A stretch of DNA of 64,000 nt. Source: Cristatella mucedo (Eukaryota > Bryozoa > Phylactolaemata > Cristatellidae). The notes beneath the pieces were generated by a model, which saw nothing but the letters and a program-made list of their open reading frames with translations, had not been told where the DNA came from and made no database searches. Each line of letters begins with the position of its first letter. Position 1 is the stretch's first letter. The position numbers and the translations under genes are program-made. Below, piece by piece: positions 11,060 to 61,228 of the stretch. The stretch spans positions 1,982,001 to 2,046,000 of the forward strand of contig WPIO01000014.1 of the NCBI GenBank assembly GCA_009760855.2, given 5' to 3'.

Positions 11060-11311
11060 GAGTCCATCCAACCAGTGGGTCCATCTGATTCAACCTTTGT
11101 TTGCTTATGCGTGCTGCCACTTCGCATGCTGCCACTAACCATATTTGCATGCATGACCCTGTGCATATCACCCCTAACCATGTTATGCTTGTCGTCACTG
11201 AGCATGCCACCTCTAACCATTCGATCATGCTTCTTTTGCAGAAAATGTAAAGCGCCTAGAAAGAGATTGGATTCTCTGAGAGTGCCTTATCAAGTTTATT
11301 ATTATTATTCC
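11060..11311 (+). mobile_element. LINE family A 3' end
   Basis: It contains the family A 3' UTR block (GCATGCTGCCACTAACCA, CATGACCCTGTGCAT), the AGCGCC hairpin near 11251, and a (ATT)n tail. Severely 5' truncated. Confidence 0.8.
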
Positions 11312-24358: not shown

Positions 24359-27300
24359 CCTGTCTCTCTCTCTCTCTATCTCCCTGTCTCTCTGTCTCTC
24401 TCTGATTTTCTTTTATTCTTTGTTCTGCACTTTTTTTCTGTCACTCAGTTTTCGGCATGTAGCTTGAGCTTTTTTTTTTTTAATGGTTCTACTCTCATCG
24501 ACTGGTTATGAAAAGAGCATTTCGTTTCGTCACGGTTGTTGCTAGTGTGTGCTGATGCCGTGTAACCTTTGCCTGCGGTAACCTTTGCTCCCACCACCCG
24601 AACCACAGGAAGAGCAGCAAGGATCCTCTGGATCTACAGGTCTAAACTGACAAGAGCTCTCTCAGCTCATGGCAAGTAATCGTACCAGCACTGCTTGGGG
24701 ATTCAGATCCCTGGCTACTACTCCATTTCGATCCTAACAGAGATACTCTGGGATTCCGAGAAATTCACTACGGGCTTCACATGCTTGTACACTTGCATGG
24801 CTTGCAGATCGAGCCTCTGCACATGTCTATTTAGTCCAGAGCACCGTAAAACTCAAAATTAAGAACCATTGTAAAGAGCAGCAGCATCTGTGGCTTGTAG
24901 GTGAGTTGGTGTGATAGCCAAGATATTGCAGATTTGGTCTGCATCCTGTTGGAAGTGGAAGTATTTTCTGCTCAACCGGCCTTGTGTCGCCTAGGCTTTC
25001 AATCTAAAACTCACTCACAAGCTCCCAAAATTAACTACAGAAGGAAGGTTGCTCACACGAATAATAGTCACATTGCTTAACCTGGCCTGCAAATTCTTGT
25101 GTGTCTAATCTAGGTCTGCCCAAACCGGCAGCTACCTCCTTCCTCCTATTGGGGGGGGGTGGGGGTTAGGTGGTGTGGGTGGAGGGAGGTGAAGGCATTT
25201 TGACGAAATGCTGGCTATGAGCATAGGATCACTCCCGACTTGCCTCACGACATCCCCTGACTTGACCGCATTTAAAAAGAACTTAAAAATGCACTTATTT
25301 ATGACAGCATGTAGTGGGTCCCTGTGATTCGTCCTTTATGTGCTTATGAGTGCTGACACTGTGCATGAGGCCACTAGCCACACTTGCATGCTGACCCTGT
25401 GAATGTCACCCCTAACCATGTTATTCATGTTGTTTATCAAGCATTATATCACTTGCCAGATCGTGCTTCCTTCGCTGCAAATGTAAAGCGCCTAGAAAGA
25501 GATTGAGTTCTTTGAGGGTGCTTTATCAAGTGTATTACTATTATTATTAACTGCTCGTGTAGCTGTTCACTGTCAGATGCTTGCGAATTCCGACTGTTGA
25601 AGATTGCATATTGGCTATGTCGACCTTTACCTGATGCACAGCCCATACGGTGGTATGGTCGTCGAAACCTACAAGGAAATGCTGAAGCTGAAGGATGAGG
25701 GCCTGATCAGGTACTGACCTACTTGCACGGCTGCCTTCCATGCTGCCACTGCTGCTGTTGCTGCTGCTGCTGCTGCTCCTGCTCCCACTACTGCTGCTGT
25801 GCACTGGCATTTAATCGTGGCTCTGGGAGCACGAGCCCAATTGTCTTTACTTATGTGGTTTTGCAAAGCAGTAGCTGCTCCACATTCTCATTTAATCAGA
25901 TTTGGATGAGGTTTAGTTGGGGTTCAATTGAAAACCTTGCCTTCCTGCTTTAGGTGGTTATATTTATTGCCAGTGCCAATGTATGTGCCGGTTATTATAC
26001 AGCAATTGCAAGCTATGGATACTTCACTGGATTGCAAAGGCATTATTTGCACAAGTTTGAATTGTGTCATCGATTGCTTGCTAGCTAAGATGTCAGCAGG
26101 ATCTGGTAGTCTGGATGGAGATTGCCCTATCACCTATTTAGAGGAGTTGGATAAGACTGCTATCTATTAGGTATTTGTTGATGCTGCACTATTTTAGAGA
26201 CATGCTATAGTGCTCTTTGCACGTGTCTTCTTTGCTTTTTACCAAATGCTAGGAGCCTCATCTTTGATGTTTATTTTACTGCACTTCAGGTCACTTGCAT
26301 ATGGACGATGTCATTTATTTTTGTGTGTGACGACTCTTTCAGGTCGGTTGGTGTGTCTAACTTTGGTGTGCAGCATCTGGAAGGGTTGGTTGCCGCCGGA
26401 CTGCCGCCACCCAGCGTCAACCAGATCGAGCTGCACCCGTGGCAGTGGCAGCCCAAGCAGGCCATCGTCAAGTACTGCCTGGACAAGGGCATCGCTGTTA
26501 TGGGCTACGCTCCACTGACCAAAGGCGAAAGGCTGGATGCTCCCGAAATCGTTCGACTTGCTGAGAAGTATGGCTGTGGCCCCCATAGAATAGGCTGCAA
26601 AGGGGGGGGGGCTTCTTGCATGCCACCACCGTCTTTGTCCCACGTGAGAGCTTGGCTATGGTATGCAAGGCTCTCATCCAGCCTACTTCATACGCTGTCG
26701 TTGTCCTTAACCTTTAGTCTGGGTTGGGATTGCCTGTCTATGAAAAATGTCTAGAATACGTCCCCCCCCCCCCCCCCCCCCCCCCGCTATAATGCTGGAT
26801 AGTGCGGACCTGTCTCACCTGGCACTATAGAAGGTGACATTGTTAGGGGAGGATGCTTACCTAAATCAGCAATGGCCTGCTCAGAGCAGGAACTAACAGG
26901 TGCTCAGCTAGAGCACAAGAGGTAAGAGCATCAGCATAGCATTAGCAAATGAGCCAGAGCATGTAGTGAATGCATGTGCATACTCAAGTATGAGGTGTGT
27001 GCTGTGCATGTATGGGCAACGAAGCAGGTGCATGCAGCATATCATCCTATTAAGTTATGATTAACCAATGTGAAATTGTCTTTAATATACCAGGGTTCAA
27101 TGGGAGTAAGCCATTAACGACTAATGCTCTTAGAGTTAATAATGATTATGTTAAATAATTGTAATAATGTATTTTGAATTGCAGGTATATCAATATATTG
27201 CAATAATTTGCTTACTTTCCAGCATACGTAAAAGAGATTTAGTTCTCTATGCAGACATTTTATTATTGCTACTATTGTATGTGGACGTTTGAGTGTGACT

Positions 27301-30300
27301 TTTTTGAGCCGAGTTCAGCGCGGCATGCCAGCTGTGACATGCTCTATTGAATTGAATAGGCATGGGAAGACCAACGCTCAGATCCTTCTCAGATACAGCC
27401 TGCAGATGAACTTCATCACAATACCTAAGTCGTCTAAAATAAAGAGAATCGAAGAAAATGCAGCCGTGTTCGACTGGTGCCTCGATGATGAGGACATGGT
27501 ATTGCTGGTAAGCCGCTCTGCTGCTGTGCATACGCATTGCTAGAGTGCTTGTGTTTGTGCACGTGTGCTTGCTTTTGTAGCTAGCCGCAGGCTGCATACT
27601 GAGCAGACTGCAACTCTCGATTTGCTATTTTCTTGTTTCAGACCAATGCTTTTCGGTTTTGTTTGAGTTTGATAACTTGATTCAATACCTTTTGCTGTAC
27701 ATGTCATCAAACGTCTTTGAATTGTTTTGTCTGCAGGCATGAACATATATAGTAAAATGTATCCAATCAAAATTAGAAATGAGCTCCTGCAGTGTTATAC
27801 AAGTAGTACTGAACTTGGATTTGAAACTTCAAATGGTTCCTTTAAGTATTGGCCGGGTTATGGAGTTTACAATGCACAAAGGTAGACTGTAAATACTGTT
27901 AAAGCTGTTAAAAGTCACTTGCATGTACCTCGAAGAGCTGCAAGCTTGTACTTCAGTGTATCAAGTTTAAACTAGTTTCAACACGTCATATATGATGCAA
28001 ATATCGACAAAATAGTTATTGGGGATTTGTTGCTTCTGATTTACTTCCGGAATTAGGCATGGTTTGCCTAATCGCTTTTTAATGCTTTCATTTTACACGG
28101 AAATCCTCAACACTTCAAATCCAATTTCTAGTGTTTTTCTGTTGAAAGATACCCTAAACAATTATTCTATTGATTTACCATTCGTCTCAGTACTTTCTTG
28201 ACACTCACCCATAACACGATTGGTCGTCTATGGGACGAAGTTGTAAGTTGGCTGAGAGCTCTAGACACTAGCATCAGATCGCCGGCTGGAAATGAAATAA
28301 ATTGCATGTGGTTTGGCATGCTATACCGTATGATGTAACTCTTTAACTCGCCGAGTCTGTGCTAGCATGAAAAGTGGAAGTGACTGCTAATCAGGGAGCG
28401 AGCTACATCCTACTAGTATTAGTGGTTTTTACCACCTGTGCTGTGGTTGGCATCCTAACTAAATTGTGTTTTGCTGTGGGGATGTATGCAGATAATTGGT
28501 AGGTACCAGTAAATTTAAAACTGCATTAAGTGTGTATATATATTGTAATATAATTATCAATGTATAGCTTGGAGAATTTTCCTCTTTGGTATATATAAAT
28601 CGTTTTTAAATGAAGTTTTTCCGAAATCACAATTACCATAGTTGATCTACTTTGCTACAATGCTGTCTTCTACTGTACCTTCACCGGGAACATCTATTAA
28701 ACTGTACCTGCTACGAGCCACCCAACAGGGGATTTCACAAATCGACTCTGAGCTGTACCTCAAAATTTGAGCATCTTCTTTGGCTTAAAGACTGTTGGTG
28801 ACAGAAGCATCTACTCTGCTGGTCTCAGACTGTGGAACCTTTTCTCGCCGACCTGCACTGGTTACCAGTCAAGCAACGGATTGACTTCAAGGTTTTGTCG
28901 CTCACTTTTAGGTCTCTTCATTCTATGGCTCCAGCCTATCTTTCAGAGATACTACCCCATCAGGCAAAGCATCGTACCACTCGCTTTTCGGAATCCAACA
29001 GTCTAGAAATACCTCGTACAAACCTTAAATCCTTTGGAGACCGTGCATTTAGCTCGTATGCTCCCACAGCCTGGAACTCCCTCCCGACCTGCATCAGAAC
29101 ATCCCGTGACCTGACCACATTTAAAAGAAACTTAAAAACATACCTATTTAGGACAGCATTTAGTGGGTCCTTGTGATTCGTCCTCGATGTGCTTATGCGT
29201 GCTGACACTGTTCATGCTGCCACTAACCACATTTGCATGCTGACCCAGTGCATGTAACCCCTAACCATGTTATTCATTTTGTTTGTTTTTCAAGCATGAT
29301 TTTACTTACTATTCTATTGCGTATCACTTTGCAGCAAATGTAAAGCGCCTAGAAAGAGATTAAGTTCTCTGAGGGCGCTTTATCAAGTGCAATATTATTA
29401 TTATTACTTCCACAATTCGTATACAATGCCATCTCCCCCTACCGACTGTGGCACATGCTTTCCAGCCTCCCTATGCTACATCTAGACGTCTCATTTTCTC
29501 TATTGCCCACCCGACTCAGGTACACTTCTCATTTCCTTTTTGTTGCATGAGATAGAGTCGATTGGCTACCGTATGGCAACCACAGGCGCCTAGGCTTTGG
29601 CTGTGCTATATGAATCATGCAGCATAACACGCTCTTAGTCCTTGAGGCTTGGTAGAGTTACAGGCAGAGCTACATGATATTACATTGAGTCAATCGGTCC
29701 TTCAAAGGTATTTTCTCCCAGCCATCTGGATGCAATTAACCCTTATGAATCCATCTAATGTATGTGTAGTGAGTGTACCACGGTGAAAACCTCAGTCTAG
29801 CTCATGTTAACCTGAAGAATATCAGTTCTTGAGGCCGATCTGTGTTGCTGGATGTGTATGGTTTTGACTTAAAGTGAATTGATGTGCACTGCAATACAAG
29901 GGCCCTTACTAGACAATACCTGCCATGAAGCTGCTTAACGAGACAACTTTAATTAGTTACTCCTACTGCTAAAATACAAAATTAAAATAATGATGAGCAT
30001 TAATAATTATTAATTTATTCTCAAACAGAACTATCGAAGGTTGTGGAATTGTGAGCTGAGTTTTTTTTTTGCATTGAGCAGGGAACGATGCTGCGACCTT
30101 TAAGTTACCATCCTTCTACTCTATCGATTCGGCTTTCCGGGCTATCAGTCTGTGGTACTTCACAAAGGCTTGAAGGCTTGGCTCTAAAAATGTTGCTCGT
30201 GCACCTGAGCCAAATTGCAGTGTACTGCCTGAATGCACATGTATTCTTTAATTGAATGTGAGTGCCAAGTTATGTCTCCTGTAATCGGAGATCAGAGATT

Positions 30301-32357: not shown

Positions 32358-32498
32358 GAGCTGGTTTGGTCTAGCGGTTAAGGTGCTCGCCCCGACCAAG
32401 GTCTGACTGAGGTCGTGGGCTGGAGCCCCGAGGCATATGTGAAGCGCCTGAATAGAGATTAAGTTCTCTTGGGGCGCTATATAAATGAATTATATATT
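32358..32498 (+). repeat. SINE family C (tRNA-headed, LINE A-type tail)
   Basis: The head is TGGTTTGGTCTAGCGGTTAA (box A-like) with GGTCGTGGGCTGGAGCCCC (box B-like). The tail at 32442-32478 is AAGCGCC..AGAGATTAAGTTCTCT..GGGCGCT, then an AT-rich end. The tail has the same outer stem, inner stem and TTAAGT loop as LINE family A. Confidence 0.82.
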
Positions 32499-32954
32499 GC
32501 ATTTGCAAGTACTTAGTGGTGCGGTCTATTATCCAGTTAATTTTTTATATAAGACTTAGGTATTTTAGAGTGCATGGTTAAATTTTTGTTTGATTAAGAC
32601 CTAAAATAATTGAAATCACTAATCATTTGTTAGTGCAGCTGCCAGACGATTGGGGTCCACCTGCTTGTCACGATCTGTCATCTCGAGTTAATGCTGTCTT
32701 TGTAGTGCTGGTTTACGATGAGGTAACTCCATTCAATTCGAGATACCTTAATCCAACCCCGAAGGCTTGCAAATGGGTAGTTTTGCCGTTCACCTGTCAT
32801 CTGAAGAAAGCAATTTAGTGCCAAGTTGGAGACCTGAGAGCTGCCTTCGGGAAAACCAGAACTTGACAATCTCCTCTACATTAGTTGGAATTTCAGTTGC
32901 TGATGTCGCAGTCGGAACCCATTGAGGCAATCCCTGAATGAGCCTAAATTGGAA

Positions 32955-33105
32955 GTACTTAGGGATAAGGTGCTCGAACCTAATGACCAAGGTCGCGGGT
33001 TCGAGTTCTGCAGCATGCAATTCTGTATTGCCGACTGCAAGCTGCAGCTACGGCTCTTCTGCGGCTATATAGGGGGGCTGTGGAATCAGCTGACCTTTAC
33101 GATAG
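32955..33105 (+). repeat. SINE family D
   Basis: Box B-like GGTCGCGGGTTCGAGTTC, then CGGCTCTTCTGCGGCTATAT and GGGCTGTGGAATCAGCTGAC. Confidence 0.7.
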
Positions 33106-34278
33106 TGTATGCGGGGTGTGTGAGTGGTGTGCTAGCGCCAAAATTTACTGTGTACGTTAATTTCACTCTCCATAAAACGAAGTGAGGGAGAACAGGCGCC
33201 GTGGCTGCTTAAGTCTCGCTGACTGGTGGCATGCAAAGACGGTTGGACGGTCGGAGGTAATAATGAGATTAGCAGGAAGTAGACCGACACCGAGCTGCCA
33301 TGCAGGAGGAAGCAAACTGGATAGCAAGAAGTGCAAGATAGCAGCGGCAGCAGCGTGCTGCGACTGCTGCTGCTGCTGCTGCTATCCTTCCTATCGCGGC
33401 AGATCTGCCGTCCAACAATATCCAACATATTGAGAGGTAATGTTAGTGCGAGAAAGGCAGGTCTAATACAAATAGAGGGTGAGCTTCCCTGCTATCTTTA
33501 CTGGCAGATTAGCTCTTACACCTAAGTTACCGGCGGCTAGAAAACAAACTGTCGCGGTACGTAATCATTACATACTTGAAGTGAGCAGCCGCAAGTAGGC
33601 AGTTACATAGGTACACTCGTGCGCGTCCCAAATTTTGGTATTCAAAAAACAGAGCTTATGCAATGGATGGTTGAACTTGCATTGAATTTTCAATTCTTTC
33701 AATGGCGTAAAACTGCTAGGAATTGGGCGAGTACATTTATCATTTATTCGGAATCAAGTATGTCGTTCCTAAAAATGCGTTACATACGATTCCAGTGTCG
33801 GAGAGTCTTCAGGAAAGCGCTCGTTGTCGTATGCCCTTGGCCAGCCATTGGGAACTCAGCCTGGTTTCCAAATATAGTTTCCAGCCGCTAAAGTTTGTGT
33901 TCCAGATCGCTTGTTGTTCAGGCATCCTAGGAACATAGCCAGGAAGTAACGAAATTGTAAAAAAGGTATTGGACGGGCTGTTCACTGGAGAGCTCTCCTG
34001 GCAATCTGAGACGATTACTCAAAGTACAAAATTATTAGTGGAGCTTATTAACTTAATTTCAACGAAACAGCGAGACAGCATAACTGCAACAGTTGGTTCT
34101 GTCGATTGATCATCACCCGAAGCTAAGTTAAATAATTTGGATGCCGTTTTACGCGGCCGGAAAAAGTAAAAAGAAATGTATCTAAGTAATAGTAGAGCAC
34201 ATCATTCTACTATGTGAGTCCCTCGCGAGGAGCGAGCATTAGTTATACCAAGTTAGGTTGGTCTCGCAGGTGCCCACT
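33106..34278. other. Unassigned intergenic stretch
   Basis: A short CTG run sits at 33361-33384. Open frames on both strands have no recognised motif. No repeat family found. Confidence 0.4.
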
Positions 34279-34301
34279 TGTGTGTGTGTCTCTGTGTGTG
34301 T

Positions 34302-34352
<51 letters not shown>

Positions 34353-34369
34353 TGTGTCTGTGTCTGTGT
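34279..34369. repeat. (TG)n microsatellite
   Basis: About 90 bp of TG with TCTG variants. It abuts the 3' end of a reversed LINE B, so on that element's strand it is a (CA)n tail. Confidence 0.95.
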
Positions 34370-34806
34370 ATCTCCGTCTGTAACTCCACAAAGTCATAAA
34401 GACTATGTGGGTGTTACGCAGGAGAGTTTTGTATAGCGCACTCACAGCCTAAGCGGCTTTCGGTACGCATTCGGTAGCCAACAGACCGTCTCACGCAACA
34501 AAGAGAAAGTGGGAAGCATAGCAGAGTCAGGAGAGCAGTTGAGGTAGTGAGTAGCATAGAAGTAGCAGCTCAGGACCGCTGAAAAAGATGTGCCATAGTC
34601 AGCAGTAGGAGAGTAGTTGTCATTGCGTAAGAATTGTGGAAGCGAGTTCCACAGTCTAGGACCTGCAGAGCTAAAGCTTCTGTCGCCAACGTTCTTTAAG
34701 CTGAGGAATGAGACAGCTAATTTTTTGTCCACACGGGACCTCAGGGCACGAACAGGCTGAAACTGATGTAGCAGTTCAGCTAGGTACGGAGGAGCCAAGC
34801 CGTTGT
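34370..34806 (-). mobile_element. LINE family B 3' part, reversed
   Basis: The minus strand reads APPYLAELLHQFQPVRALRS, LAVSFLSLKNVGDRSFSSAG and the usual 3' UTR ending GGAGATACAC. It matches 48190-48660. Confidence 0.87.
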
Positions 34807-35199
34807 GTCCTCCCTTCGCGAATTAGTTCCATCAGATAATGAGTTACATCCTGCCAAAATTGCTTAAGCGCTTTGCTAGGACAACTAGCTTGAATGCCAC
34901 GCTTTAAAAGGCCGCCATCTCTTTTCGGGTTTCTATCAATCTGCATAAGTAGCAAATTATTCTAAGGAGTGCTTCCGACTTTACGTTAATCTCGCTCTAA
35001 ATTCTGAAATAAGACCGACCAAAGGTGAGGATGGACCGCACCGGGTATCGAACAGGCAGTATTATGGAGGTACTGAATTCTCATGACGGAGAAGCCTAGC
35101 TGCCGAGTTTTTGCATCAACTGTCAGCTTCCTATTGCACAGAAGCAAAGACCTACGAGTAGGGAGTCACACGAGCAAAGAGGAATGTCACAAATGCACC
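34807..35199. other. Unassigned stretch between two reversed LINE fragments
   Basis: No recognisable feature. Confidence 0.4.
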
Positions 35200-35872
35200 G
35201 ATCAGCTTGGCTTTGGTATCAACAAGTATAACATGGTTAGAGGTGGCATGCACAAGGTCAGCATGCAAAGATGTTTAGCGGCATCATGCACAGTGTCAGT
35301 AGGCATAAGCACGCAAAGAACAAATCGCAAGGACTCACTAAATGATTTCATAAATATGTGTGTTTTTAACTTATTTTTAAATGTCGTCAAGTCAGGGGAT
35401 CTCATGGCGTCAGTTGCAAGTGAGTTCCAGGCTTTGGGAGCATACGAGGTAAAGGCGCAGTCTCGCAAGGTTTTAAGGTTCGTACGTACGTATAGGTGAA
35501 CGAGTTGATTCAGAAAAGCAGGCGGTACTATGCCTAGCATGGTGGGGGAGTAGTTCTGATAGGTAGGCTGGGGCCAGAGAATGAAGGAACCTAAAAGTGA
35601 GTGACAGAACCTTGAAGTCGATGCGATGCTTGATTGGAAGCCAGTGTAGGTCGGCAAGAAGGGGTGTGATGTGGCAACTTCGACGCTTACGGCAGACAAG
35701 CCTAGCTGCAGAGTTTTGCACCAACTGTAAAAGCCTGATTGCACACGCCGGTAGACCAGCGAGCAGTGGGGGTACAGAAGTTGAGACGAGATGTCACAAA
35801 TACATGGACCAATTTAGATATAGTATCCCGTCTAGGCCAGAAAGAATTTTAGCCACGTTATGTAGCTGAACA
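35200..35872 (-). mobile_element. LINE family A C-terminal part, reversed
   Basis: The minus strand encodes VQNSAARLVCRKRRSCHITP, LADLHWLPIKHRIDFKVLSL and the C-terminal block, then part of the 3' UTR. The hairpin tail is missing. Several stops and frame changes. Confidence 0.85.
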
Positions 35873-35875
35873 TAG

Positions 35876-36039
35876 TGCCACCCCGATTTGGCCCAGTGAT
35901 TAAGGTGTACACTTAACCGAGGTCAAGGTGAATGTATATGACGACCGAGGTCGTGGACTCGAGCTCCGCGAAATACGTGAAGCGCCTGACCTGAGATTAG
36001 GTTCTCTTAGATCGCTATAATATGAACTATTATTATTAT
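35876..36039 (+). repeat. SINE family C
   Basis: Head CCCCGATTTGGCCCAGTGAT, box B-like GGTCGTGGACTCGAGCTCC, tail AAGCGCCTGACCTGAGATTA with GTTCTCTTAGATCGCT and (ATT)n. The right arm of the outer stem is mutated. Confidence 0.8.
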
Positions 36040-36044
36040 CCTTA

Positions 36045-36560
36045 CCTAAGCAGACCCGAATGTTTGCAATGATAAGTATCTGAAAGTAGCCAGACTTGAG
36101 TGTGTGAAGCTGATGACATTATCAAATGAAAGGTCACTTTGGAAGAGGGCACTCTGATTATATGCAGATGCCATAAGATATAATCTGGCTGTAATCAATT
36201 TGAGGGTTCACTTGTGAGTAATATCAAGTTGTCCCATATCTAGAGAGTCCATTTTGGTCATTCGATTTTTGAAAATGCGCCACCGTGAAAGTGCGAATGT
36301 CAGCAACACACCGTTTAAAGGAGTTGAGCCAGTTATACGTCTTGGAAGGCCTGGTGAGGAAGGGATCTGAGCACAGGTACAGAAGCCGTCTGTGTCATCT
36401 GCATTGAAATAACAGCCTGGATCGTGCTTGGCGATTATATCGGCAAGAGGCGAGTGCGAATTGTGAAAAGAAGCAGGCTGCGAAACGATCCCAGGTGCAC
36501 CCCATACTCTAGAAGTTTACTGGATGACCATTGGCCTTCGATATCTGCCGGCCTTCGACT
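36045..36560 (-). mobile_element. LINE reverse-transcriptase fragment, reversed
   Basis: The minus strand translates to a YGVHLGSFRSLLLF-like block (from [12 protein letters not shown]) and a CYFNADDTDGFC block (from YADDTQ), then matches the family A connection up to about 36045. Degraded by frameshifts. Confidence 0.65.
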
Positions 36561-36801
36561 GTCTGCTGCTGTCTTCTTTTGAGAAAGGACGTAAACTTGC
36601 TGTGTACTGTCAGTGATTGTCGGAAAATCTTGATAGCACTCGAGGAGGACCTCGTGGTCAATATAATGAAATTCTGCTAACGTCCGGTTAAGAATACCTT
36701 TTTTAAATCGCCTCTATAAGCTGTGTTTATAGCAGCCGCGACAAGAATACTCTACGGTTGGGCAGCAAGCAGTGGGCGGAGCCATGATTTTCATCTACGA
36801 G

Positions 36802-36812
36802 CGGGGGGGGGG

Positions 36813-36845
<33 letters not shown>
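36802..36845. repeat. (GGC)n tract after a G run
   Basis: A G run at 36802-36814, then about ten GGC triplets. The following 300 bp is GC- and CpG-rich. No ORF continues through it in a convincing way. Confidence 0.9.
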
Positions 36846-37690
36846 AAGACCTGGACCCCAGTTTGTTGTAGGGTGTAGAACGTGCACGTCGCTAGCTTAA
36901 AGATAAGGTTTAGGCGTCGCCAGTTTTGTCGTGCGTCGCCTGAGACTAGCATACGTTACGAGCGCCGTATTTGCAGCCCAGTTCTCTCTGGGCGCCGAAG
37001 CCACACGCCGCGTTTACGACGACTTTTAAGCAGTCGGTGAGACGGCTGCACTTGCACCGCGGGGAGCGCCGCCTGAGCTTCTGCACTAGGCAACCGCGTG
37101 GCGGAAATTAATGATGAACACGCTGGTCACGATTATGCCAATGCGATGGAGTCTAATAACAGCTGCACGCCAACAGCTAAGTGGCTTGTTGACTTTTATC
37201 TATATTGAGCTCGTAGCGCTTTATTTAATAAACTCTTAAGGCAGCTGCGTAAAAATCAGTGCGTGGCGAGTACAGTTGACATTTGGGAAAGGTCTGGTTA
37301 CTAGAGTACTCCAAGCAGTGGCGGTGGCGTGTTCGACAGCTAACGCCGGCTCTGGAAGCGATTTTTACGATACTTACAGTGTCCACAGCGATATCTTTGC
37401 GTCGGAGGAAGAATGAACCTTGCGCACGATCTCCTAGAAGGCGGAACGCACAGCCTCTGATGCTCAAGTCTTGTAAACTCACCCACTTCGACAGAGAAAG
37501 CATTCAAGTGGACCCACTGGCCTACCAATGTAGGAAGCAGCCGGCGAGGAGGAGGCGATAGTCTACCGGGAGCTATACTACCTAGCATACATACATACCG
37601 GGAGCTATACTACCTACATAGCTAGACTACCGACTGATATCGCGACTTGACGACGCTGAAAAAGAAGCTGAAAACCACTGGTTCCCCAGT
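36846..37690. other. CpG-rich unassigned region
   Basis: Richer in CG than the surroundings, possibly a promoter-like CpG island for a gene not seen here. Opposed open frames at about 37225-37588 have no recognised motif. Confidence 0.35.
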
Positions 37691-37699
37691 CTTTTCACC

Positions 37700-37858
37700 G
37701 TCCATGCGAACCATTCTTTGCGTGCTTATGCGTGCTGAAATTGTGAGAGTCATCACTAACCGATAGACGCGATTCCTTGCCACCATATGTACAGTGCCTA
37801 GAAAGTGATTATAAGTGTTATCTGAGAGCGCCATAGAAACGTCTTGTTATCATTATCA
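37700..37858 (+). mobile_element. LINE family A 3' UTR relic
   Basis: GCGTGCTTATGCGTGCTGA, then GTGCCTAGAAAGTGATTA and GAGAGCGCC, followed by an AT-rich end. Strongly degraded. Confidence 0.6.
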
Positions 37859-38561
37859 CTCTAGCACTCAGCTGGTTAGTAATTCTAAGGCGCCACGTAT
37901 CCCAAAAATCCACCCTTCTTCCTAGTAAGGGATGGGGATGGACCGATGGCGCCTAGCGGGGCGGTTCTTATCGCCCGCGACCGCTGCACCTAGGTCATCG
38001 GCGTACGTCATTTTAGTCAAAATAGGAAAGTAGCCGGAGCTAGGTAGGCGGACGGTGCCGGGTGAGCGATTTAACCAACCAGGCATCGCGAGATAGTAAC
38101 CAATCGCATTGCCGCTCCACCACCAGGCTTTTGTAAGAGAAATAGATTGTGCGGAGCCGCCGGCGACAGCCGGCACGTGCTGGTCCTCGGGTCAGTCCCC
38201 ACCTGAAATTGGTCTGCAGTGTATCACCTGACCGGTGGAATAAGGTACGTTTAAAAGAAAAGCGTAGTCGCTTCTTCGCCATGCAGATGCCTTGTCGATT
38301 CCGGGTCGTGTATTGGCTCGCGCTGTGCGAGCGAGCCCGGTTTGAAAGCTTCGCTAGTTTACTCGTGGACACTCCTGTCCGGATTGCTATATGCGTCTGT
38401 GTTTTCTTGTTGGTGTGGGCCGCCAGATCCTCCATAGGAAATCGCATCTCGCTGGCTGTATGAAATAGGTCTCCTGTTCGAATTTGCGCTAGGCCATATT
38501 ATGAGCCAATCGTGGCGGTTACAGCTGCAGGCGCCGGCTTGTCGAGTATATCGGAGGGTAC
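37859..38561. other. Unassigned stretch
   Basis: Overlapping frames of more than 100 codons lie on both strands at 38040-38463, with no known motif on either. The minus-strand one is basic and Ser/Arg-rich. Confidence 0.35.
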
Positions 38562-39505
38562 CTTACTAGTTATGGGCAAACCGAGTGTGATTCAGAGATT
38601 GGAAAGGCTCTCTCAAAATTGGCTCTGCCAGCATATCTCCTGTCGAATCAGCTCGAAATCTAGGTGCCATATTCCAAAGCGACCTCTCGCTAGACGATCA
38701 TATCAGCTCCACAGTCAAATCTGCCTATTTTCAGCTTCATAACATTGCTAAAATTCGGGCTTGTTTAGATAAGGATACCACGTCCAAGTTGGTCCATGCA
38801 TTCGTGACATCCCGTCTCGACTTTTGCAACTCACTGCCTACTGGCCTACCAGCATGTGCGATCAGGCGATTGCAGCTGGTGCAAAACTCCGCAGCTAGGC
38901 TTGTCTGTCGTGAGCGTCGCAGTTGCCACATTACTCCACTTCTCGCCGACCTGCACTGGCTACCAGTCAAGCAACGGATTGACTTCAAGGTTTTGTCGCT
39001 CACTTTGAGGTCCCTTCATTCTATGGCTCCAGCCTATCTCTCAGATGTACTCCCCCACCAGGCCAAGCATCGTACCACCCGCTTTTCGGAATCCAACAGT
39101 CTAGAAATACCTCGTACAAACCTTAAATCCTTTGGAGACCGTGCATTTAGTTCGTATGCTCCCAAAGCCTGGAACTCCCTCCCGACCTGCGTCAGAACAT
39201 CCCCTGACCTGACCACATTTAAAAGGAACTTAAAACACACCTATTTAGGACAGCATTTAGTGGGTCCCTGTGATTCGTCCTTCACGTGCTTATGTGTGCT
39301 GACACTGTGCATGCTGCCACTAACCACATTTGCATGCTGACCCTGTGCATGTCACCCCTAACAATATTATTCATTTTGTTTGTTTTTCAAGCTTGATTTT
39401 ACTTACCATTCAATTGCATTTCCCTTTGCAGCAAATGTAAAGCGCCTAGAAAGAGATTAAGTTCTCTGAGGGCGCTTTAGCAAGTGCATTATTATTATTA
39501 TTATG
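38562..39505 (+). mobile_element. LINE family A, best 3' copy
   Basis: It starts in the RT C-terminal region (MGKPSVIQRLERL) and reads through VTSRLDFCNSLPTGLPACAI, LADLHWLPVKQRIDFKVLSL and NLKSFGDRAFSSYAPKAWNS with few breaks. Then comes the 3' UTR, the terminal stem-loop (39439-39478) and (ATT)n. It is 5' truncated. Long open segment 38789-39340. Confidence 0.9.
39439..39478 (+). promoter_or_regulatory. LINE family A terminal stem-loop
   Basis: Outer stem AAAGCGCC (39439-39446) with GGCGCTTT (39471-39478). Inner stem AGAGA (39452-39456) with TCTCT (39463-39467). Loop TTAAGT. Its position just before the tail is where L2/CR1-type reverse transcriptases are thought to recognise their RNA; that function is inferred. 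Confidence 0.75.
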
Positions 39506-41619: not shown

Positions 41620-41781
41620 GCTGCGCTGGCTTGGCCCAGTGGTTAAGGTGCGTGCCTTTAACGAACGAGGTCAGGGTGAATACATTTGATGACCGAGGTC
41701 GTGGGCTCGAGCCCCATGGCATATGTGAAGTGTCTGAATAGAGATCAAGTTCTCTTAGGGCCCTATACAAATGAATTGTGT
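41620..41781 (+). repeat. SINE family C just upstream of AKR copy 2
   Basis: Box A-like TTGGCCCAGTGGTTAAGGTG, box B-like GGTCGTGGGCTCGAGCCCC (41697-41715), tail TCTGAATAGAGATCAAGTTC, GGGCCCT and ACAAATGAATTG. It ends about 31 bp before the AKR start codon. Confidence 0.82.
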
Positions 41782-41812
41782 ATTTCTTTTGGTACTTCCG
41801 TTAAGGAGGGGA

Positions 41813-41985: not shown

Positions 41986-44900
41986 GTGAGTGCCCACGTG
42001 ATGTTAGCGTGGATTGTATATGTCCGAGATGTGCTTCGCTTTAGTCTGGAATGCTGATTGCGCTGGGGGTGGCAATTTGCTAGAGCTTTACTGCCTCCTT
42101 GTTATGTAGGATATGCATTTTTCATTTTGAATTCTGCTGTGCACGTGTTTCCAAATCTCCTTAACTATTATTTGTTTTAGAATACTGGTTCAAAGATAAT
42201 ACCTGTTGGTTTTTGCAGGCTTGATAATGTGCACATCACTAATCCTTGGGTACTAATTCTCTTGCTGCAAAATGTAAAGTCCTGGTTAGAGATACATTTC
42301 TATTAAGGTGCTATATAAACTACCTATTATTATTAATAGTGTAATTATTATTCTTATCTGCAGTAAGAGAGTGCCTTGCTAGAATCGTTCCACAAATCAA
42401 GAGTAGATCTTTCTGTGTTTATCTAACAGAGGAACCGCTCATGCACTTTGTGCTCACATCGAAGCTCCTTCTACGGTGCTCTGCTTCATCATCGCTTCCA
42501 GCTTTGTACTGGGACAGTGCTTGGTCATTTAAGTAATTGTTTTTCACGATGGTTTATCAAATTTTTTACATATTGCAGAAAGCTTGCTTTTTCTTTAATA
42601 ACTGTTTTCATAGCATAAGGATCTGACATGCATTGTCTCAGTTCTGCCATCATATAATGACTGTGAGATAGTGAGCCTTCTCGGAGAGTACCGAGGCAGT
42701 TGCAGCTTACTACTGTTCTTCTGGTTGCATCGTCAGCTGTATTTTGCATTAAAAATTGCCTGCAGCCTGTTTTGTAACTGTGATAGACCTTTGGACTTGG
42801 GAGGACTTTATAAACGTGATGTAACTGCTGTGATTTTTCCTCTGCCAGTAGTTATCCTAGTCAATGCTCTTTTCTCATCCATCACCCACAATGCATATTG
42901 CTGCTGTGACTGCTTAAGACCGAGAAGTTGTGTATTAATAAAATTAAATAATTAAATAAAATTAAATAAAAATAATTATAAATTCAAGCATAGACAAAGC
43001 AATCGCACTCGAAAAAATATGGTTACCTTAGGCGTTGATGGGGCAGCTAAAATTGAGGTTATTAATTTTTGCTATGGGTCAAGGTCTCGCATAGAGCTTT
43101 TTATTTTACAGCTCAACTATCACACCAACGTTAGAAGCACTTTACCGTTATGTAGAAGGCCCCTACAAGTTTTTCTATGTGCTGCTGCTGGTTCCAGTCT
43201 ACTAGTTTTGATCTGAATATGCATGTCTTTTCTTGTTTAGATTTCCTCAGTGCCTTGTCGAATTTTGCCACGGTAATTTTCCATTTATCTGTGAATTTAC
43301 ATTTGCATCGTTTCTTGTTTTCATTTTCTACTGCTCCCTACCTGTTGCTGAGCAGGTCATGTAGACTATTAGAGACTGTTTTGCCAATGCATTTGATATG
43401 AAATGCTGAAATTGCTGCTGCATATGGAACTAACGTTCACTCCAAGACATTATGCCTGTAGTCTGGCATCTGGCCTGTACTTTCCTTTCATGTCACCTGT
43501 TTCAGAAGCAGAATGTGCTAAAAGGCAACTTATTCAGTTCATATTGGCCTGGCATTTAAACAAATACTGCTGTTTGAAAAAAGTAATATGGGGATTTTCT
43601 CCTCGATCATTTGTGCAAATGTTATAGATTATAAATTTCAAGTAGATTTTTGTAGTTGGGGGCATTACCACATCTTTCAATAGTAGCTTTACGTGATTTT
43701 CAATCTATATAAATGGTTATGTTAGTATGTAAGCCCGTGAGTGAGTGAGTGCTTAAACACAACTCACTGATGCCATGCTTACGTTGTACTCATTGTGACA
43801 TTTTTAGTACTATTACGATGGTTCATCGGCTGCCATGTCAACGTATCAAGAGAGATTAACAACTAATTTGCATATGTAGCTACACCATCTAGACATAGTT
43901 GAAATTGAACATCGTATGCATTGAATTATGACATAGGAGGAGCTGGCGTTTGATTGCTTTTGCTTACCTACACATGCTAACGCTGTCGAGATTATGTCTT
44001 GGTGGAATGTGGAACAAATGAAAATGAAGAGCAAGAGCATCTGTAAAGTGCCTAGAAACAGATTACATTATCCGAGGGTGCTATGCAAATGTATTATTGT
44101 TATTATAAACAAGAGCAAGACCAGAACAGTCAGTCCTAGCATAGGTCTGCCGGTCGATGAGTCATTAAGGCTGAGCCCTCGTGAAGCTGCATGCCTAAAT
44201 GCATGGTATTTTTTCTATTTGAATTTACCCAGAAGTTTTCGCGGATGCATGTCGGTCGATTGATTCATTATTGTGCTGGATTTTGTGTAAAAAGAAAGGT
44301 TTCTTGTAGCTGAAAAGGTAAAGTAACAAGGGTAGCAAACCGCGGCAGCCAACAGTGTACGATTGTATGTGCCGGCCTTCTTATTTTGGGGGTAGTGTTT
44401 GACCTTTTGTACGTTTTTTGCAGTAACGAAGTGTATGTAGGCAAGGGTGTAAATAAATTTTTGAAAGAGTCAGGCAAACGCCGAGAGGATATATTTGTGG
44501 TGACGAAACTGTGGTTTGATCATCACGGCGCAGCTGCATGCAGAAAAACATTTTTGGAGCAGCTTGAGAAGTAAGTTGAGATCACTTCTGTTCTAATTTG
44601 ACTGCTGGTTCTGATGTTGCTGGTTCTGATGTTGCTTATCTGATGTTGCTTATCTGATGTTGCTTATCTGATGTTGCTTATCTGATGTTGCTGGTTCTGA
44701 TGTTGCTTATCTGATGTTGCTTATCTGATGTTGCTGGTTCTGATGTTGCTGGTTCTGATGTTGCTGGTTCTGATGTTGCTTATCGTGTCACTTTAGGGCA
44801 AGCAGGTTGAGTTGTAGGTGACAGGTGCAGATGCAGCTTTCGAGCTTTGTGTGCTGTATTCGTTTTGGTCCTTGAATTCTTATTTACTGTTCGTTACTTT

Positions 44901-47900: not shown

Positions 47901-50900
47901 CCCTATCTAAGATTAGTAGCTGTCTTCCACAGTGGCTTGCGAAAAAATTTAACTAGCTCCTTAGTTCTGTCTCGGCTTGATTATTGTAATTCCCGTTTGG
48001 CTAGGCTACCAAAAACAGCAACTAGGCCACTGCAGCTGGCTATGAATATGGCTGCAAGGCTAGTTTTCAAGTCCCAGAGGTTTGAGCACGTGTCTCCTTT
48101 GCTGAAAGAGCTAGGATGGATGCCGGTTGAGCAACGGATACAGAGCAAAGTTCTTATGCTAACCCACAAGGCCTGCCACGGCTTGGCTTCTTCGTACCTA
48201 GCTGAACTGCTGCCTCAGTTTCAGCCTCCTCGTGCCCTCAGGTCGTGTATGGACAATACGCTAGCTGTTCCATTCCTCTGCTTAAAGACCGTTGGCAACA
48301 GAACCTTTAGCTTGGCAGGTCCTAGACTGTGGAACTCGCTTCCACAATTCTTACGCAACGATAACTACTCTCCTGGCTCATTATTTTCAGCGTTCCTGAG
48401 CTGCTACTTCCATGCCACTTACTACCTCAACTGATCTCCTGACCCTGCTATGCTTCTTTGCTATTGTTATATTCTTTCTTGACTAAGCTCTGCTATGCAC
48501 TTTCTCTTTGTTACATGAGATGAAGTCTCTTGGTTACCGAATGCTTACCGAAAGCTGCTTAGGCTGTGATCTGTACAGCTGTACTTGTGTGCTATACAAA
48601 ACTCTCCTGCATAACACCCACATAGTCTTTTAGCTTTGTGGAGTTACAGACGCGATACATTACATTACATTAGCTCACCAAACGTATCATTTGGTGGCAG
48701 TTTCTTTAGCCACATCAGGGCTCATGTCATAATGATGGCGAGTGGCTATCACTTGTTGCTTGTGATGCTTTTTGCGATTTCATATTCCCAGTGTGTGCAA
48801 TTTTGCAGGTCGGTCGGTGTGTCGAACTTCGGTGTGCAGCATCTGGAAGGGCTGGCAGCTGCGGAGCTGCCGCCACCCAGTGCAAACCAGATCGAGCTAC
48901 ACCCGTGGCAGTGGCAGCACAAGCAGGCCATCGTCAAGTACTGCCTGGAGAATGGTATCGCTGTCATGGGTTACTCTCCACTGACGAAGGGCAAGAAATT
49001 GGGCGATCCTCAGATCACTGCACTAGCAAAAAAGTAGGTTTGCGTCAAGTTTCTTCTCATGCCTGCCTGTTCAGCCTAGTGACCCCTGTAATCACCTCAC
49101 CTGCCTTTTACTGTGCTTTGCTATCAGCTCTCTTTGAACGTGACCAGCTGTCACTGCATTTGCAATGCCGGCAGGTCACTTTTGATAAAATTATCACATT
49201 TGCCAGAATAAGGATGTAAATAAGAGACCGTTCCTGGCATTGACTCAATATGTATACGTTGAAGAAATCTACTAAGATCTTTTTTTTAATGGATCGTTTT
49301 TCTGACCCAACCACTAAGCATAATCTAAGCCTATGCAGCAGCCAACAATTGTTGTCCCGAAATTATGGGGGCCTCTGATATTGAATTCTACTCATATTGG
49401 TTGGCAGCAGCAGTGTTGCTCCTTTACCCTCCATATTCGTGATACGTGACTAAAGGGATGATGCAGTGGCAAGCAGTGTCCCGACGCCAAGTATATCATT
49501 CGTATGTGCTTGTGCTTTCTACCTTGCCGTGAATGCGCATCTGTCGTATTGTGCAGATATGGGAAAACCAACGGGCAGATTCTGATCAGATACAGTGTTC
49601 AAATGAATTTCATCACGATCCCCAAGTCATCGAATCTGCAGAGAATTGAGGAGAATGCTGCCGTTTTCGATTGGAGTCTCAGCGATGAGGACATGAAATT
49701 GCTTGTGAGTACTTCTGCCATATTATTCAGGCTGCATATAAGTTAGCTGACCTTATAAAGTGTATTTAACCATTAATGTTTCATTGTTTCTCTTGCAGGG
49801 AGTTGTAAAGCACCTGGATAGAGATTAAGTTCTCTTAGGATGCTATCCAAACGACCTTTTTATTACTACTGCTACTACTACTACTACTACTAATAATAAT
49901 AATAATAATACACTTGATAAAGTGCCCTCAGAGAACTCAGACCTCTTTCTAGGCGCTTTACATTTGCTGCAAAGGAGTATTACTAGTATTATTATTTATA
50001 GATTATGTTCTCACCCTTGATTGGACGTCTGGTGCCTTTATCTAAAGTGCAGCAGACTGTCTGATCTGATAATGCATTGACACGCCTGTAAGTTCACCGC
50101 TGTGAAACTGAAACAGTATTGAGATACCACTCTGCCCCTCTCTACTTATTTGCTAGCGAGTAGTAGTGCATCTTTCGTTTTTTCGGCAGCTACTATTCTA
50201 CGCTTGTTGACGTATGAATCGAGGTGTTTGCCTCTAGAGATGTAGCATATTGCTTCCTTTCCAGCATAAGCAAAGTGCCTAGAAAGAGGTTTAGTTCTCT
50301 TAGGGTGCTATACAAATGTTTTACTATTATCACTATGTATCTGGTTACTCGCACTCTTTAATGACCCGTGTTTTCTTAAAGCTGTGCTGTGGTACGAAGC
50401 ATTTATGTAGCTCTTCGTCGATTGTAGGAAGTGGCAGAAAATGCGATGTGCTGGCTATTTGTTGTTACAAAGGCATGTATTTGCTGTTTTGATAGAAAAG
50501 ATTTGATGGGATGGTCCCGCAAGGGAGCTTTATTTTTTTTAGCCCGTGGCTCTTTGTTTTGGCTGCTTAGTCGAGAGACGCAGACACATAGTGTTACTAT
50601 CAAGTGGCTGTAGCAACCCCTAAATCCTTCGCCACAAATAGTGCTCACTTACCCTATGCTAGTGCCTTCAGACGTGTGACCGATATCGGTGATGCTGTCG
50701 CCTTGAGGCACCATCAGTGAGTCGTAGATGGTGCACCGATTCACACTGGCATGCGGCTGGTAGCAGAGTACGACAGCAATCAAGAGCGCCCATACCTTAA
50801 TAGCAAGTCAAAATCGTTAGCCTTGAGCAAAGTATTCTATATTGAATAATAATAATAATAATAAATAGCTTCACTCCGGATCGCTTTTTACATGGTCAAA

Positions 50901-51521: not shown

Positions 51522-53744
51522 GATAATCTGACTCAGACTATTGGTATGGGGCTGCCTAAGATTTAACCCATCAAGCACTTTTACGTCGTAGTGGTGCTTA
51601 CCGACTACTGACTTACCTTCCTTTGTCATTTGAAACTGGTCGATCTGGCCGATAAGTTCTTATCTCGACCCTGTTAGGCACGTGAAAGCCGAGCCTTATG
51701 TACATCTGCAGATGTTTCCGAGAAAACTCAATGCAAACGCAAGGTATACGTGTCTTTCAAGTCCTAAATAGTGGGTTCTCGTTCCTATGAAATTTTTGTT
51801 CATGTGAAATCGGAATTAATACGTCCGAGTGACTGCAAGACCCTAGTTTTCTCGAAGTAAATACGGAGTCTAAGGCAAAATAGAGAGACTGACAATCCGA
51901 TTCCAGCAGTCTCGTGGTAACTGTTCAGTAGAGCTAATCAATTAATAGCTTGTGCCTCATGGATGACAGCTGAATTCATCCGGTGAGCATGGTAGTAGGA
52001 CATGATATTATCGAGTAGTATCCATAGAAGTGTAAGAGTACAGTTGCCTTAAACGAACATTTTAGTTAATGTTATTGCCGAGTAAGAGCATAGTAGATAA
52101 CTATATTTGATTGACAGGTTGCTTGTGCCCAGCAGATGCATCTTGCTACGTGTTTGGAAATGTATCAAGACAAGATCAAAAAGTGTCTGCATGAAAGCGT
52201 CTGTTAAGATGGGTGAACCCTACAAAGCGTAAATGGGGATGCCTGTGATGGATCGAGAAATCCCTGAGGGAAACTCATCGAGAACGCTGAAAGAGAAGTT
52301 GTGAAGGTAAGGTGAACAATCGACGGTGGCTAATAGGAATTTCGTGTAAAGCACCATCGTATAAATTATATAATTCCGGTATGTTTGCAGGCTGATACAG
52401 GGAGTGAAGAGAGCCGTGGAGTTTGTTTGTTATTCCAGCAATTTGTTTAGCAGAAATCGACTGACTACTCAAGCAACTTTTACTTCTATATTGTGGGCCC
52501 TTCCAAACGTCAACTGGTGTCTTCCATGATGTGTCGACACATTCCTTCATCCGTCGAGCAAGTACCACACTGCTCTGAGCTCACCATCCCTATCTGCTGA
52601 TAGAGGGATCAACTATCTTCAGGGGAGATGAGCAATTAATGCAAGACAGCAATGAAGATACTGCAAATCCAGATTCCAATTCCACAGATGTGGTTGAGGA
52701 GAGAAACTGTACTTTTCCAACGATAAAGATATAATTGATCTTATCAGAGACCCTGGTCTTACGAAGACCACTGCTGAGGCTCTAACACCTCAATGCTCAG
52801 TGAATGGCGTATGGACGATGAAATTGTGAAAATAACAGATACGAGACGGTGTCACCAACTTTTTTCCATTACCCAGTAGCTACATTTTAATAGTTCATTT
52901 GCCGTTCCTATTGGGGGAAAATGGGAAACCCAAGGCTCGAATTTGCTCATTTTCTCACCAGAAATGGGTTATGTTCAGATCAATCTTTCCTGGTCATAAA
53001 GTGCAAGGTTGTAGGTAAATGGACGTTTTCTAAGCTTCTGAGGCATTAGCAATTCGGAGACTACACGTGCTCGCCAGGTAAAAAAGATCAAGTTATTTAG
53101 TTTATTATTATAATTACTATTTCAGCCAATACTCTCACTTCCGGATGCAAACGTTAACATCTGATTACATAGCTACGAACGTTCCGTATTGGCCCCTAAG
53201 CTGAAATTGTTTATGACGATAACAGCACACAAAATGGATGCTAGTCCTTACAGAGGTTGACTGAAACTGATGACGCTAGCGCCTCGAAACTTGGCTAAGG
53301 AGTACTGGGTGCTGCACCCATACAGACTTGTTTGCTGAATGTTGCAGAGCTAGGTAGCATTCAAGAGTACCCATATAATGTCCCGGCCATGAAGGCAGTT
53401 CCTTCTCTTCCGTTGCACGAGAGTGGCAAATGGGTACAGCCTTAGCCATAGTAGACACTCTTGTCGAAGCCCAAAGGACAATTAAAAATTAGTTTGATAT
53501 CAGCCTATAATTTCTGAACTATACATAACGACGTCCCCGGTTCATGCAATGATCATAATAAGTATGTCGTTTGCATTGCGCCCAAAGAAATCCAAATCTC
53601 ACCAGGTGCATTACAACTCACTGCGAGAAAAGTAATAACGGAGTATTGACGAACTGTACTGTATTATGCTTGTCTAAGCATGGTACCGTCTATGAATTGT
53701 GCTTAAACCAGGAAGCAAAAGCACGCAAGAAGACACGCGAGGCA
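51522..53744. other. Unassigned intergenic stretch
   Basis: No gene or repeat recognised over 2.2 kb. Open frames are short and without motif. Confidence 0.4.
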
Positions 53745-54125
53745 ACTAGTTAGTAAAGGCCTCCCCCCGTTGGGTTCGATGAATTTTCATACTTAAAATA
53801 ATTTGTGCAAATGCAATGGGAGATATTCTGGCAGAGCCGATTTTGAGCGTTAGCTTTTCCAATTTACGAATCACACTTGGTTTACCCATAGCTAGTAAGT
53901 TGGTTTTATCATCATTCAATTTAAGAAAGTTTGCTGCCATCCATGTGCGGATGTCATCATTACGTGCAACGGAGTTGAGAGAATTTCACGTGCTGAAGGG
54001 CTGGGAGAGATCAAAGCAAAGGTAAAACTGAGTGTCATCTGAGTAGAAGTAAAAGCCTTGTACTTGGCGATCACAACAGTTAAGAGAGTAAAATGTTCGA
54101 AAAGAGGTGGACCGTGCACAGAACC
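53745..54125 (-). mobile_element. LINE family A reverse-transcriptase fragment, reversed
   Basis: The minus strand reads YFYSDDTQFYLCFDL (the YADD-type catalytic block), then NFLKLNDDKTNLLAMGKPSV and KIGSARISPI. This shows the part just upstream of the 38562 copy. Confidence 0.8.
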
Positions 54126-56715: not shown

Positions 56716-57430
56716 TAATAATAATAATAATGCACTTGATAAAGCGCCCCCAGAGAACTTAAACTCTTTCTAGGCGCTTTACATTTGCTGCAAAGGGAAA
56801 TACAATTGAATGATAAGCAAAATCATGCTTGAAAAACAAACAAAATGAATAACATGGTTAGGGGGTGACATGCACAGGGTCAGCATGCAAATGTGGTTAG
56901 TGGCAGCATGCACAGTGTCAGCACGCATAAGCACATGAAGGACGAATCACAGGGACCCACCAAATGCTGTCCTAAATAGGTGTGTTTGGCTTCCCATCAA
57001 GCAGCGCACCGACTTCAAGGTCCCATCACTCAATATCAGGTCCCTTCATTATGTAGTGCGGCTTACCTATCTGCAGTGCTTTTTCACTCAGTGCCTCTTC
57101 TGAAAGCACCGAAACCTCCGAGTCTGGTCGTCGTTTGGTTGATTCTCTGATTAATTTTAAATCTCTTAGAGAGCTCACATGCTTCTTATATATAAAAAGT
57201 GTAATTCACTTGTATAGCGCCCTAAGAGAACTTAATCTCTATTCAGGCGCGTCACCTGTGTCTCATACATCTAAAGCCTGGAAATTACTTCCGACTGCCC
57301 ACATGGCAGCGTCCGACTTGATGACATTTGAAACAATATTAAAACCCACCTGCTGCTCAAATCGTTAGCTTCGTCGTCCTGGATGTGCTTATGCATGCTA
57401 TTGCAACTGATCAACTCGCATGCTTTTAAT
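56716..57430. mobile_element. LINE family A in two opposed parts
   Basis: 56716-56988 is the 3' UTR and hairpin tail on the minus strand. 56990-57430 is an A-like coding region on the plus strand (ATCAAGCAGCGCACCGACTT, AAGCCTGGAAATTACTTCCG). A solo tail on the minus strand (57198-57252) is inserted in the second part. The arrangement resembles the twin-primed copy at 7564, but the second part is more diverged, so two separate insertions are equally possible. Confidence 0.7.
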
Positions 57431-60579: not shown

Positions 60580-60654
60580 GTGTACTGTTTCTTATTGTTT
60601 GTGTTCATTGTTTAGTTAGCATCTCTCCCGTTTTTCATTCTTTCTAAGCATGCA

Positions 60655-61228
60655 TTCGACTTCAAGGTTTTGTCGCTCACTTTTAGGTCACTTCATTCTT
60701 TGGCTCTAGCCTATCTGTCAGATCTACTCCCCCACCATGCCAAGTATCGTACCACCTGCTTTTCGGAATCCAACAGTTTACCAATACCTCGTGCAAGCCT
60801 CAAATCCTTTAGAGACCGTGCATTTAGTTCGTATGCTCCCAAAGCCTGGAACTCACTCCCGACCTTCGGCACAGCATCCCCTGACTTGACCACATTTAAA
60901 AAGAACTTAAAACATAGAATAACTATATTATAACTATTTAGGAACTATTTAACTATTTAACATAACTATTTAGGACAGCATTTAGTGGGTCCCTGTGATT
61001 CGTCTTTCATGTGCTTATGCGTGCTGACACTGTGCATGCTGCCACTAACCACGTTTGCATGCTGACCCTGTGCATGTCAACCCTAACCATGTTATTCATT
61101 TTGTTTGTTTATCAAGCATGATATTACTCACCATTCAATTGCATTTCCCTTTGCAGCAAATGTGAAGCGCCTAGGGAGAGATTGAGTTATCTGAGGGTGC
61201 TTTATCAAGTGCATTATTATTATTATGT
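60655..61228 (+). mobile_element. LINE family A 3' part
   Basis: The coding block RSLHSLALAYLSDLLPHHAK (near 60690) is followed by NSLPIPRASLKSFRDRAFSS, then a small ACTATTTA expansion (60920-60970), the 3' UTR, the AGCGCC hairpin (stem partner GGGTGCT) and (ATT)n. Confidence 0.87.

Follow-up and report, generated by a model that had tools for sequence, protein, structure and literature searches.

Pairs of short and long interspersed nuclear elements (SINEs and LINEs) of the stringent type are a well-known kind, and have been tabulated for many animals; the table includes pairs from sea urchin, amphioxus and sea anemone whose tails are of CR1, L2, Crack or Rex1 type (PMC3747384, Table 1). Two of these, SINE2-8_SP with L2-1_SP/CR1-3_SP of the sea urchin and Nve-Nin-DC-SINE-1 with L2-22_NV of the sea anemone, belong to the CR1/L2 group; their SINEs are entered there with a tRNA promoter and with a tail derived from a LINE (PMC3747384), and by this description the pairs resemble the elements considered here, a SINE family (SINE C) and a group of LINEs, of which LINE A is the most visible, in a contig of the bryozoan Cristatella mucedo (WPIO01000014.1, positions 1,982,001 to 2,046,000). 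We refer to this whole 64 kb stretch, which has a GC content of 45% and many repeats, as the window. As in our case, the eel LINE UnaL2 ends in a 3' stem-loop common to UnaSINE (PMC3747384 and PMC4176376); the UnaL2 tail consists of TGTAA repeats, whereas the tail here is (ATT)n, and the stems here are of 6 and 5 bp. The zebrafish elements ZfL2-1 and ZfL2-2, related LINEs of one genome with differing tail versions, also carry a 3' stem-loop (PMC3747384 and PMC4176376). Unlike UnaL2, ZfL2-1 and ZfL2-2, the present system is known from sequence alone.

Here we describe a 3' hairpin common to the SINE and LINE A. Related LINE 3' ends of this genome, among them those of LINE A, A2 and D, form the group to which this hairpin belongs, and we propose that the SINE took its tail from a member of this group other than LINE A.

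A hairpin tail common to the SINE and LINE A

Four SINE copies were recognised (here and below, a minus sign after a coordinate marks the minus strand):

32358..32502, plus strand, SINE copy, tail block 32431-32502
35876..36039, plus strand, SINE copy, tail block 35969-36039, (ATT)n at the end
41620..41788, plus strand, SINE copy, tail block 41717-41788, the sole one of the four with strict A and B boxes
58653..58831, plus strand, SINE copy, tail block 58760-58831, (ATT)n at the end

These copies, placed as in the initial annotation of this DNA, align with one another, and their own profile recovers all four over their full length (by construction, E 8e-51 to 1e-60) but finds no fifth full-length copy in the window. 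Elsewhere in the window this profile has partial matches, mostly to tails; it also matches the head alone at 54364-54447 (minus strand, E 3.7e-7), and a short central stretch at 32966-33016 (E 2.7e-5). By test, the part upstream of the tail is just partly tRNA-like. For the RNA polymerase III (pol III)-type boxes, first ascribed to the family as a whole, a strict A and B box pattern is matched by one of the four copies (at 41632; 0 matches in 100 simulated sequences), and a looser pattern again finds 41632 alone. The Rfam tRNA model matches one copy at 14.4 bits (gathering cut-off 29, E 2), and ARAGORN found no tRNA in the window. The (ATT)n repeat, likewise thought general, is clean in 35876 and 58653, whereas the other two copies end in degenerate AT-rich sequence.

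LINE A is represented by the following copies:

38562..39505, plus strand, best copy, with C-terminal coding part, 3' untranslated region (UTR) and hairpin tail 39429-39501
28842..29408, plus strand, LINE A copy, tail 29332-29404
60646..61227, plus strand, LINE A copy, tail 61154-61226
25220..25551, plus strand, LINE A copy, tail 25475-25547
56718..57050, minus strand, LINE A copy, tail 56718-56790
11038..11311, plus strand, LINE A copy, tail 11239-11311; 5' limit set by eye, profile match 10972-11298
7577..8161, minus strand, LINE A copy, 5' part inverted (model positions 725-977 on the minus and 2-339 on the plus strand)
49896..49977, minus strand, tail-only copy of LINE A type, from the tail profile

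The best copy is a genuine repeat encoding a LINE-like C-terminus. It may come from a LINE of the L2/CR1 clade, a tentative placement based on C-terminal motifs and on the type of tail. None of the 22 open reading frames (ORFs) of ≥130 amino acids in the window is a full-length LINE ORF, a Pfam scan of two LINE fragments gave nothing above the cut-off, and the LINE A protein part found no relative in genome or viral contig collections, from which the window's own genome is possibly excluded. An inverted 5' part is a mark of twin priming in target-primed reverse transcription, and the structure at 7577-8161 is twin-priming-like.

Both families end in the same stem-loop, AGCGCC..AGAGA-loop-TCTCT..GGCGCT, and the sharing of this hairpin is real. 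The pattern AGCGCCTNNNNAGAGATTAAGTTCTCT, with up to three mismatches, has 13 matches in the window and 0 in each of 100 shuffles, and a tail profile made from 11 seed tails detects 24 tail copies in the window at E ≤ 1.2e-4, seeds counted, the best match on the reversed window having an E of 2.8. Pattern and profile thus bear out the double stem-loop reported for the SINE and LINE A 38562-39505. By type, the 24 tails comprise eight of LINE A type (including the tail-only 49896-), six of A2 and other A-like type, three of D type, the single tail 23595-, the tails of the four SINE copies and two headless tails of SINE type.

In the best-preserved tails the fold consists of an outer stem AGCGCC/GGCGCT (6 bp) and an inner stem AGAGA/TCTCT (5 bp) closed by a 6-nt loop. 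In LINE A, TGTAAA/TTTA.CA and GCA/TGC prolong the outer stem downwards. When eight of the 24 tails were folded against 200 shuffles each, six (LINE A 39429, 29332 and 25475; SINE 32431 and 58760; D 49797) reached z-scores of -2.4 to -5.9, equalled in 0-3 of 200 shuffles, and two did not stand out (50262, z -1.2, 22/200; 44035, z -0.7, 50/200). Over all 24 tails the proportion of paired cells is 77.4%, against 33-50% for slid versions and 75.6% for shuffled letters.

The exact hairpin pattern has no match in viral and genome contig collections, which may exclude the window's own genome. A looser outer-stem pattern gave 39 matches in viral contigs, which we regard as chance, the exact inner AGAGA/TCTCT stem occurring in 0 of 39 and a version with ≤2 mismatches in 1 of 39. 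Tail strings occur in the text of two papers, in one of which the string is a salamander microsatellite primer.

Identity is confined to the 3' end

Identity between the SINE and LINE A is confined to the hairpin, the ~12 nt preceding it, and the tail. In ungapped bins before the tail block, compared between the four SINE and five LINE A copies, mean identity is 0.52 at positions -5 to -1 and then 0.07-0.37 farther up, against 0.56-0.92 in the same bins between LINE A copies. Whether identity is limited to hairpin and tail was the check suggested in the initial annotation, and the answer is yes, with the addition of the ~12 nt. Both a common 3' end with a stem-loop and similarity limited to that end, as in stringent pairs, are found in the window. 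Just upstream of the tail, LINE A and A2 share 0.76 at -5 to -1 and 0.48 at -10 to -6, compared with 0.52 and 0.19 for the SINE and 0.53 and 0.49 for D.

Relationship of the SINE tail to the LINE tails

Besides the SINE and LINE A copies, the following tails bear on the origin of the SINE tail:

49785..49868, plus strand, D-type tail, 8/11 diagnostic columns (see below) in the SINE state, the nearest non-SINE-type tail by that measure
53555..53898, minus strand, D-type tail 53555-53622; upstream of it, on the strand of the tail, a LINE A-like coding fragment (53645-53898)
42257..42336, plus strand, D-type tail
50251..50333, plus strand, A2-type (intermediate) tail
61701..61783, minus strand, A2-type tail; upstream lies a LINE A-like 3' UTR match (61810-61886)
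44037..44110, plus strand, A-like tail-only insert with a possible 10-nt target-site duplication, AAGAGCAAGA, at both flanks
57192..57263, minus strand, SINE-type tail without tRNA head, adjoining a LINE fragment on the opposite strand (57270-57399, plus)
10978..11037, minus strand, headless SINE-type tail, arranged head-to-head with a LINE A copy

The SINE and LINE A consensus sequences differ at 11 tail columns, which we used as diagnostic columns. The SINE state is present at 0-1 of these in the eight LINE A tails, at 4-5 in the six A-like tails, at 8, 6 and 7 in the three D tails, and at 6 in 23595-. Since A-like and D tails carry 4-8 of the SINE states, most of these are not SINE inventions. 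A maximum-likelihood tree of the 24 tails (59 columns; 2 of 20 inner branches starred) has a branch (96/97) that divides LINE A, A2 and A-like tails (14 rows) from the SINE, SINE-type and D tails and 23595-, with LINE A separate on a branch of its own (95/96). Forcing the six SINE and SINE-type rows together with the eight LINE A rows costs 13.4 log-likelihood units (approximately unbiased (AU) test, p-AU 0.042), whereas forcing them with D changes the log-likelihood by -0.43 (p-AU 0.351) and forcing them alone by -0.95 (p 0.318). LINE A as the partner of the SINE, as first proposed, thus appears weakened; the most visible LINE looks like a relative of the likely partner and is probably not itself the LINE nearest to the SINE.

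The D tail is LINE-related in one or more of its three copies. The fragment upstream of 53555- on the same strand matches the LINE A model (E 2.9e-11), and farther upstream on that strand lies a LINE-like stretch with a YSDD motif, presumably the reverse transcriptase active site.

Several observations weigh against a donor other than LINE A, or against the pairing as a whole. Overall identity fails to separate the candidates: consensus identity to the SINE is 48/59 for LINE A (0.81), 45/55 for D (0.82) and 48/57 for A-like tails (0.84, the highest), mean copy-to-copy identity with the SINE is 0.674 for LINE A, 0.658 for D and 0.628 for A-like tails, and the single LINE A copies 29332 and 39429 (48/59) are level with D 49797 (47/58). 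The tail offers just 59 usable columns, with the two starred branches noted above, and the four SINE and two SINE-type tails come together as a single group in 24% of bootstrap trees. The AU test gives a borderline p-value, the groups were named post hoc, after the sequences had been seen, and D consists of three decayed copies. Kimura two-parameter (K2P) distances overlap between the SINE and LINE A, and those for LINE A come from the five best-preserved of its eight copies, a choice that favours young LINE A. The tRNA origin of the SINE head is weak (one of four copies). Covariation in the hairpin is also weak: the percentage paired is equalled by 3 of 500 shuffles, the covariation score by 22, the cells changed on both sides by 58 and the further pair types by 228, and RNAalifold predicts no pairs over all 24 tails; the test has little strength here because the copies are decaying. 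Finally, the loop is less uniform than first described, exact TTAAGT occurring in 3/8 LINE A-type, 1/4 SINE and 1/3 D tails, while the others differ by at least one base; among the SINE-type tails it occurs in 1/2.

Because overall identity does not decide between the candidates and the groups were defined post hoc, we regard the diagnostic columns and the tail tree as evidence, not proof, for a donor other than LINE A. The initial annotation had named a LINE with a closer 3' match as the finding that would overturn its pairing; diagnostic columns and tree count against LINE A as the closest match, whereas overall identity leaves the matter undecided. Within the hairpin columns alone (13-56), consensus identity to the SINE is 33/39 for LINE A, 33/36 for D and 32/38 for A-like tails.

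On balance, we consider it probable that the source of the SINE tail was a D-like or ancestral LINE of the tail group and not LINE A, and that the composite SINE was copied in trans. The best-surviving alternative, that LINE A itself was partner and tail donor and that the SINE came to differ at the 11 columns once it had captured the tail, is in our view unlikely. The paired bases are identical in the best copies, the mean copy identity of LINE A to the SINE is no lower than that of D, no non-SINE-type tail matches the SINE consensus better than 29332 and 39429, and the best-preserved LINE copies with a hairpin tail in the window are those of LINE A; however, this reading is opposed by the SINE states found in A-like and D tails, by the tree branch (96/97) and the AU test, and by the divergence of the elements, the measured LINE A copies being mostly less diverged (K2P 0.07-0.24 between pairs of the five copies) than the four SINE copies (0.19-0.39). 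As the ranges overlap and the selection of copies biases LINE A towards youth, these distances do no more than suggest that the SINE spread mostly earlier than the visible LINE A burst.

Less likely still, the D and tail-only copies could be remnants of one or more further non-autonomous families, with the donor LINE of the SINE lying outside the window; we think this improbable. For eight of the 24 tails, the strand of the tail shows neither a SINE nor a LINE A match farther than ~15 nt upstream, and LINE coding sequence is found near just one of the three D tails, but 53555- does have a same-strand LINE fragment upstream, and LINE A-like 3' UTR pieces lie upstream of 61701- and of tail 37781. 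A reversed borrowing, in which the LINEs captured the tail of the SINE, is hardly credible: the mean divergence of the SINE copies is higher than that of the measured LINE A copies, but the tail is present in several LINE variants, and the similarity of LINE A and A2 just upstream of it exceeds that of the SINE.

Proposed mobilisation of the SINE

Under our preferred reading, a tail from a D-like or ancestral LINE, the tRNA-like 5' part of the SINE would direct pol III transcription, and its 3' hairpin and (ATT)n tail would have been acquired from a LINE. The hairpin would act as a docking site at which the LINE reverse transcriptase picks its template for target-primed reverse transcription: the LINE protein may bind the hairpin of the SINE RNA, nick the DNA and prime cDNA synthesis in the (ATT)n tail, and so copy the SINE in trans. 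We infer this sequence of steps by analogy with zebrafish L2 LINEs, in which, according to PMC4176376, the ORF2 protein binds the 3' stem-loop through a region situated between its endonuclease and reverse transcriptase domains, the loop sets specificity, and retrotransposition is abolished when the stem-loop is deleted or swapped. A captured LINE 3' end and copying in trans by the reverse transcriptase of a LINE, as originally suggested, fit both the anatomy of the SINE and the literature.

The SINE-type tail 57192- and the adjoining LINE fragment 57270-57399 have about an even chance of being a twin-priming product. If they are, 57192- would be the end of a LINE carrying a SINE-type tail.

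Tail-only copies

Eight of the 24 tails look tail-only (10978-, 11995, 23595-, 44035, 49797, 49896-, 50262 and 57192-, from the profile-match tables), by which we mean that no SINE or LINE A match lies more than ~15 nt upstream on the same strand. They may be products of extreme 5' truncation, or LINE 3' UTRs that are unidentifiable from the window. That the folded tail alone, a hairpin of ~70 nt starting at its own base, is a mobile unit without LINE or SINE body is doubtful. The best case, 44037-44110 (74 nt), begins at the first paired base of the predicted fold and has the 10-nt AAGAGCAAGA flanks, and its fold is no better than those of shuffles (z -0.7). Among 13 elements examined for target-site duplications, one has a 10-nt repeat (single-test chance 0.002); in a wider test, 1 of 24 tails compares with 130 of 20,000 random intervals, ~0.16 being expected, which is not significant alone.

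Neighbouring repeats and genes

A second LINE and a second SINE-like family occupy parts of the window:

45855-48678, LINE B, C-terminus ~45% identical to LINE A
59145-59532, 20693-20973, 13578-14020, 34279-34807 (minus strand) and 57445-57567 (minus strand), LINE B 3' pieces
32180-32319, 5828-5965 (minus strand), 30310-30462 (minus strand), 32990-33091, 54746-54865 and 817-903 (minus strand), second SINE-like family

LINE B ends in GTTACAGA-type sequence followed by ACATT-like or CA repeats, and its endonuclease-like ORF matches Pfam PF14529 below the cut-off (E 1.9e-4). As a candidate partner of SINE C it was rejected, six of its 3' ends showing the GTTACAGA-type end without the AGCGCC hairpin; sequence of GTGCGCTATA type within LINE B is matched by the tail profile, though very weakly (E 0.95-4.4). 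The second SINE-like family has, by eye, a tRNA-like B-box region and a body different from that of SINE C, and the best of its copies has a small GCTG/CAGC stem at the end, followed by AATTTATTTATTT.

Hairpin tails of three types (D on the plus, LINE A on the minus and A2 on the plus strand) lie within 550 bp at 49785-50333, the first two meeting tail to tail inside an ATT/CTA microsatellite. At 49559-49870, the D-type tail stands ~90 nt past the end of an aldo-keto reductase-like exon, and its TTTCTCTTGCAG is a candidate 3' splice site, after which 13 amino acid residues can be read, so that an exon could possibly derive from a LINE tail. Exon-like pieces at 26337-26526, 27362-27512, 41855-41991, 48803-48992 and 49559-49709 belong to at least two duplicated genes, which resemble aldo-keto reductases.

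Implications for SINE/LINE partnership

The window holds several related LINE ends with slightly different tails next to a SINE that carries one of them, a set that allows the question of which tail changes alter the choice of partner to be asked. It also gives reason for caution, in that a shared hairpin alone is insufficient for naming a partner.

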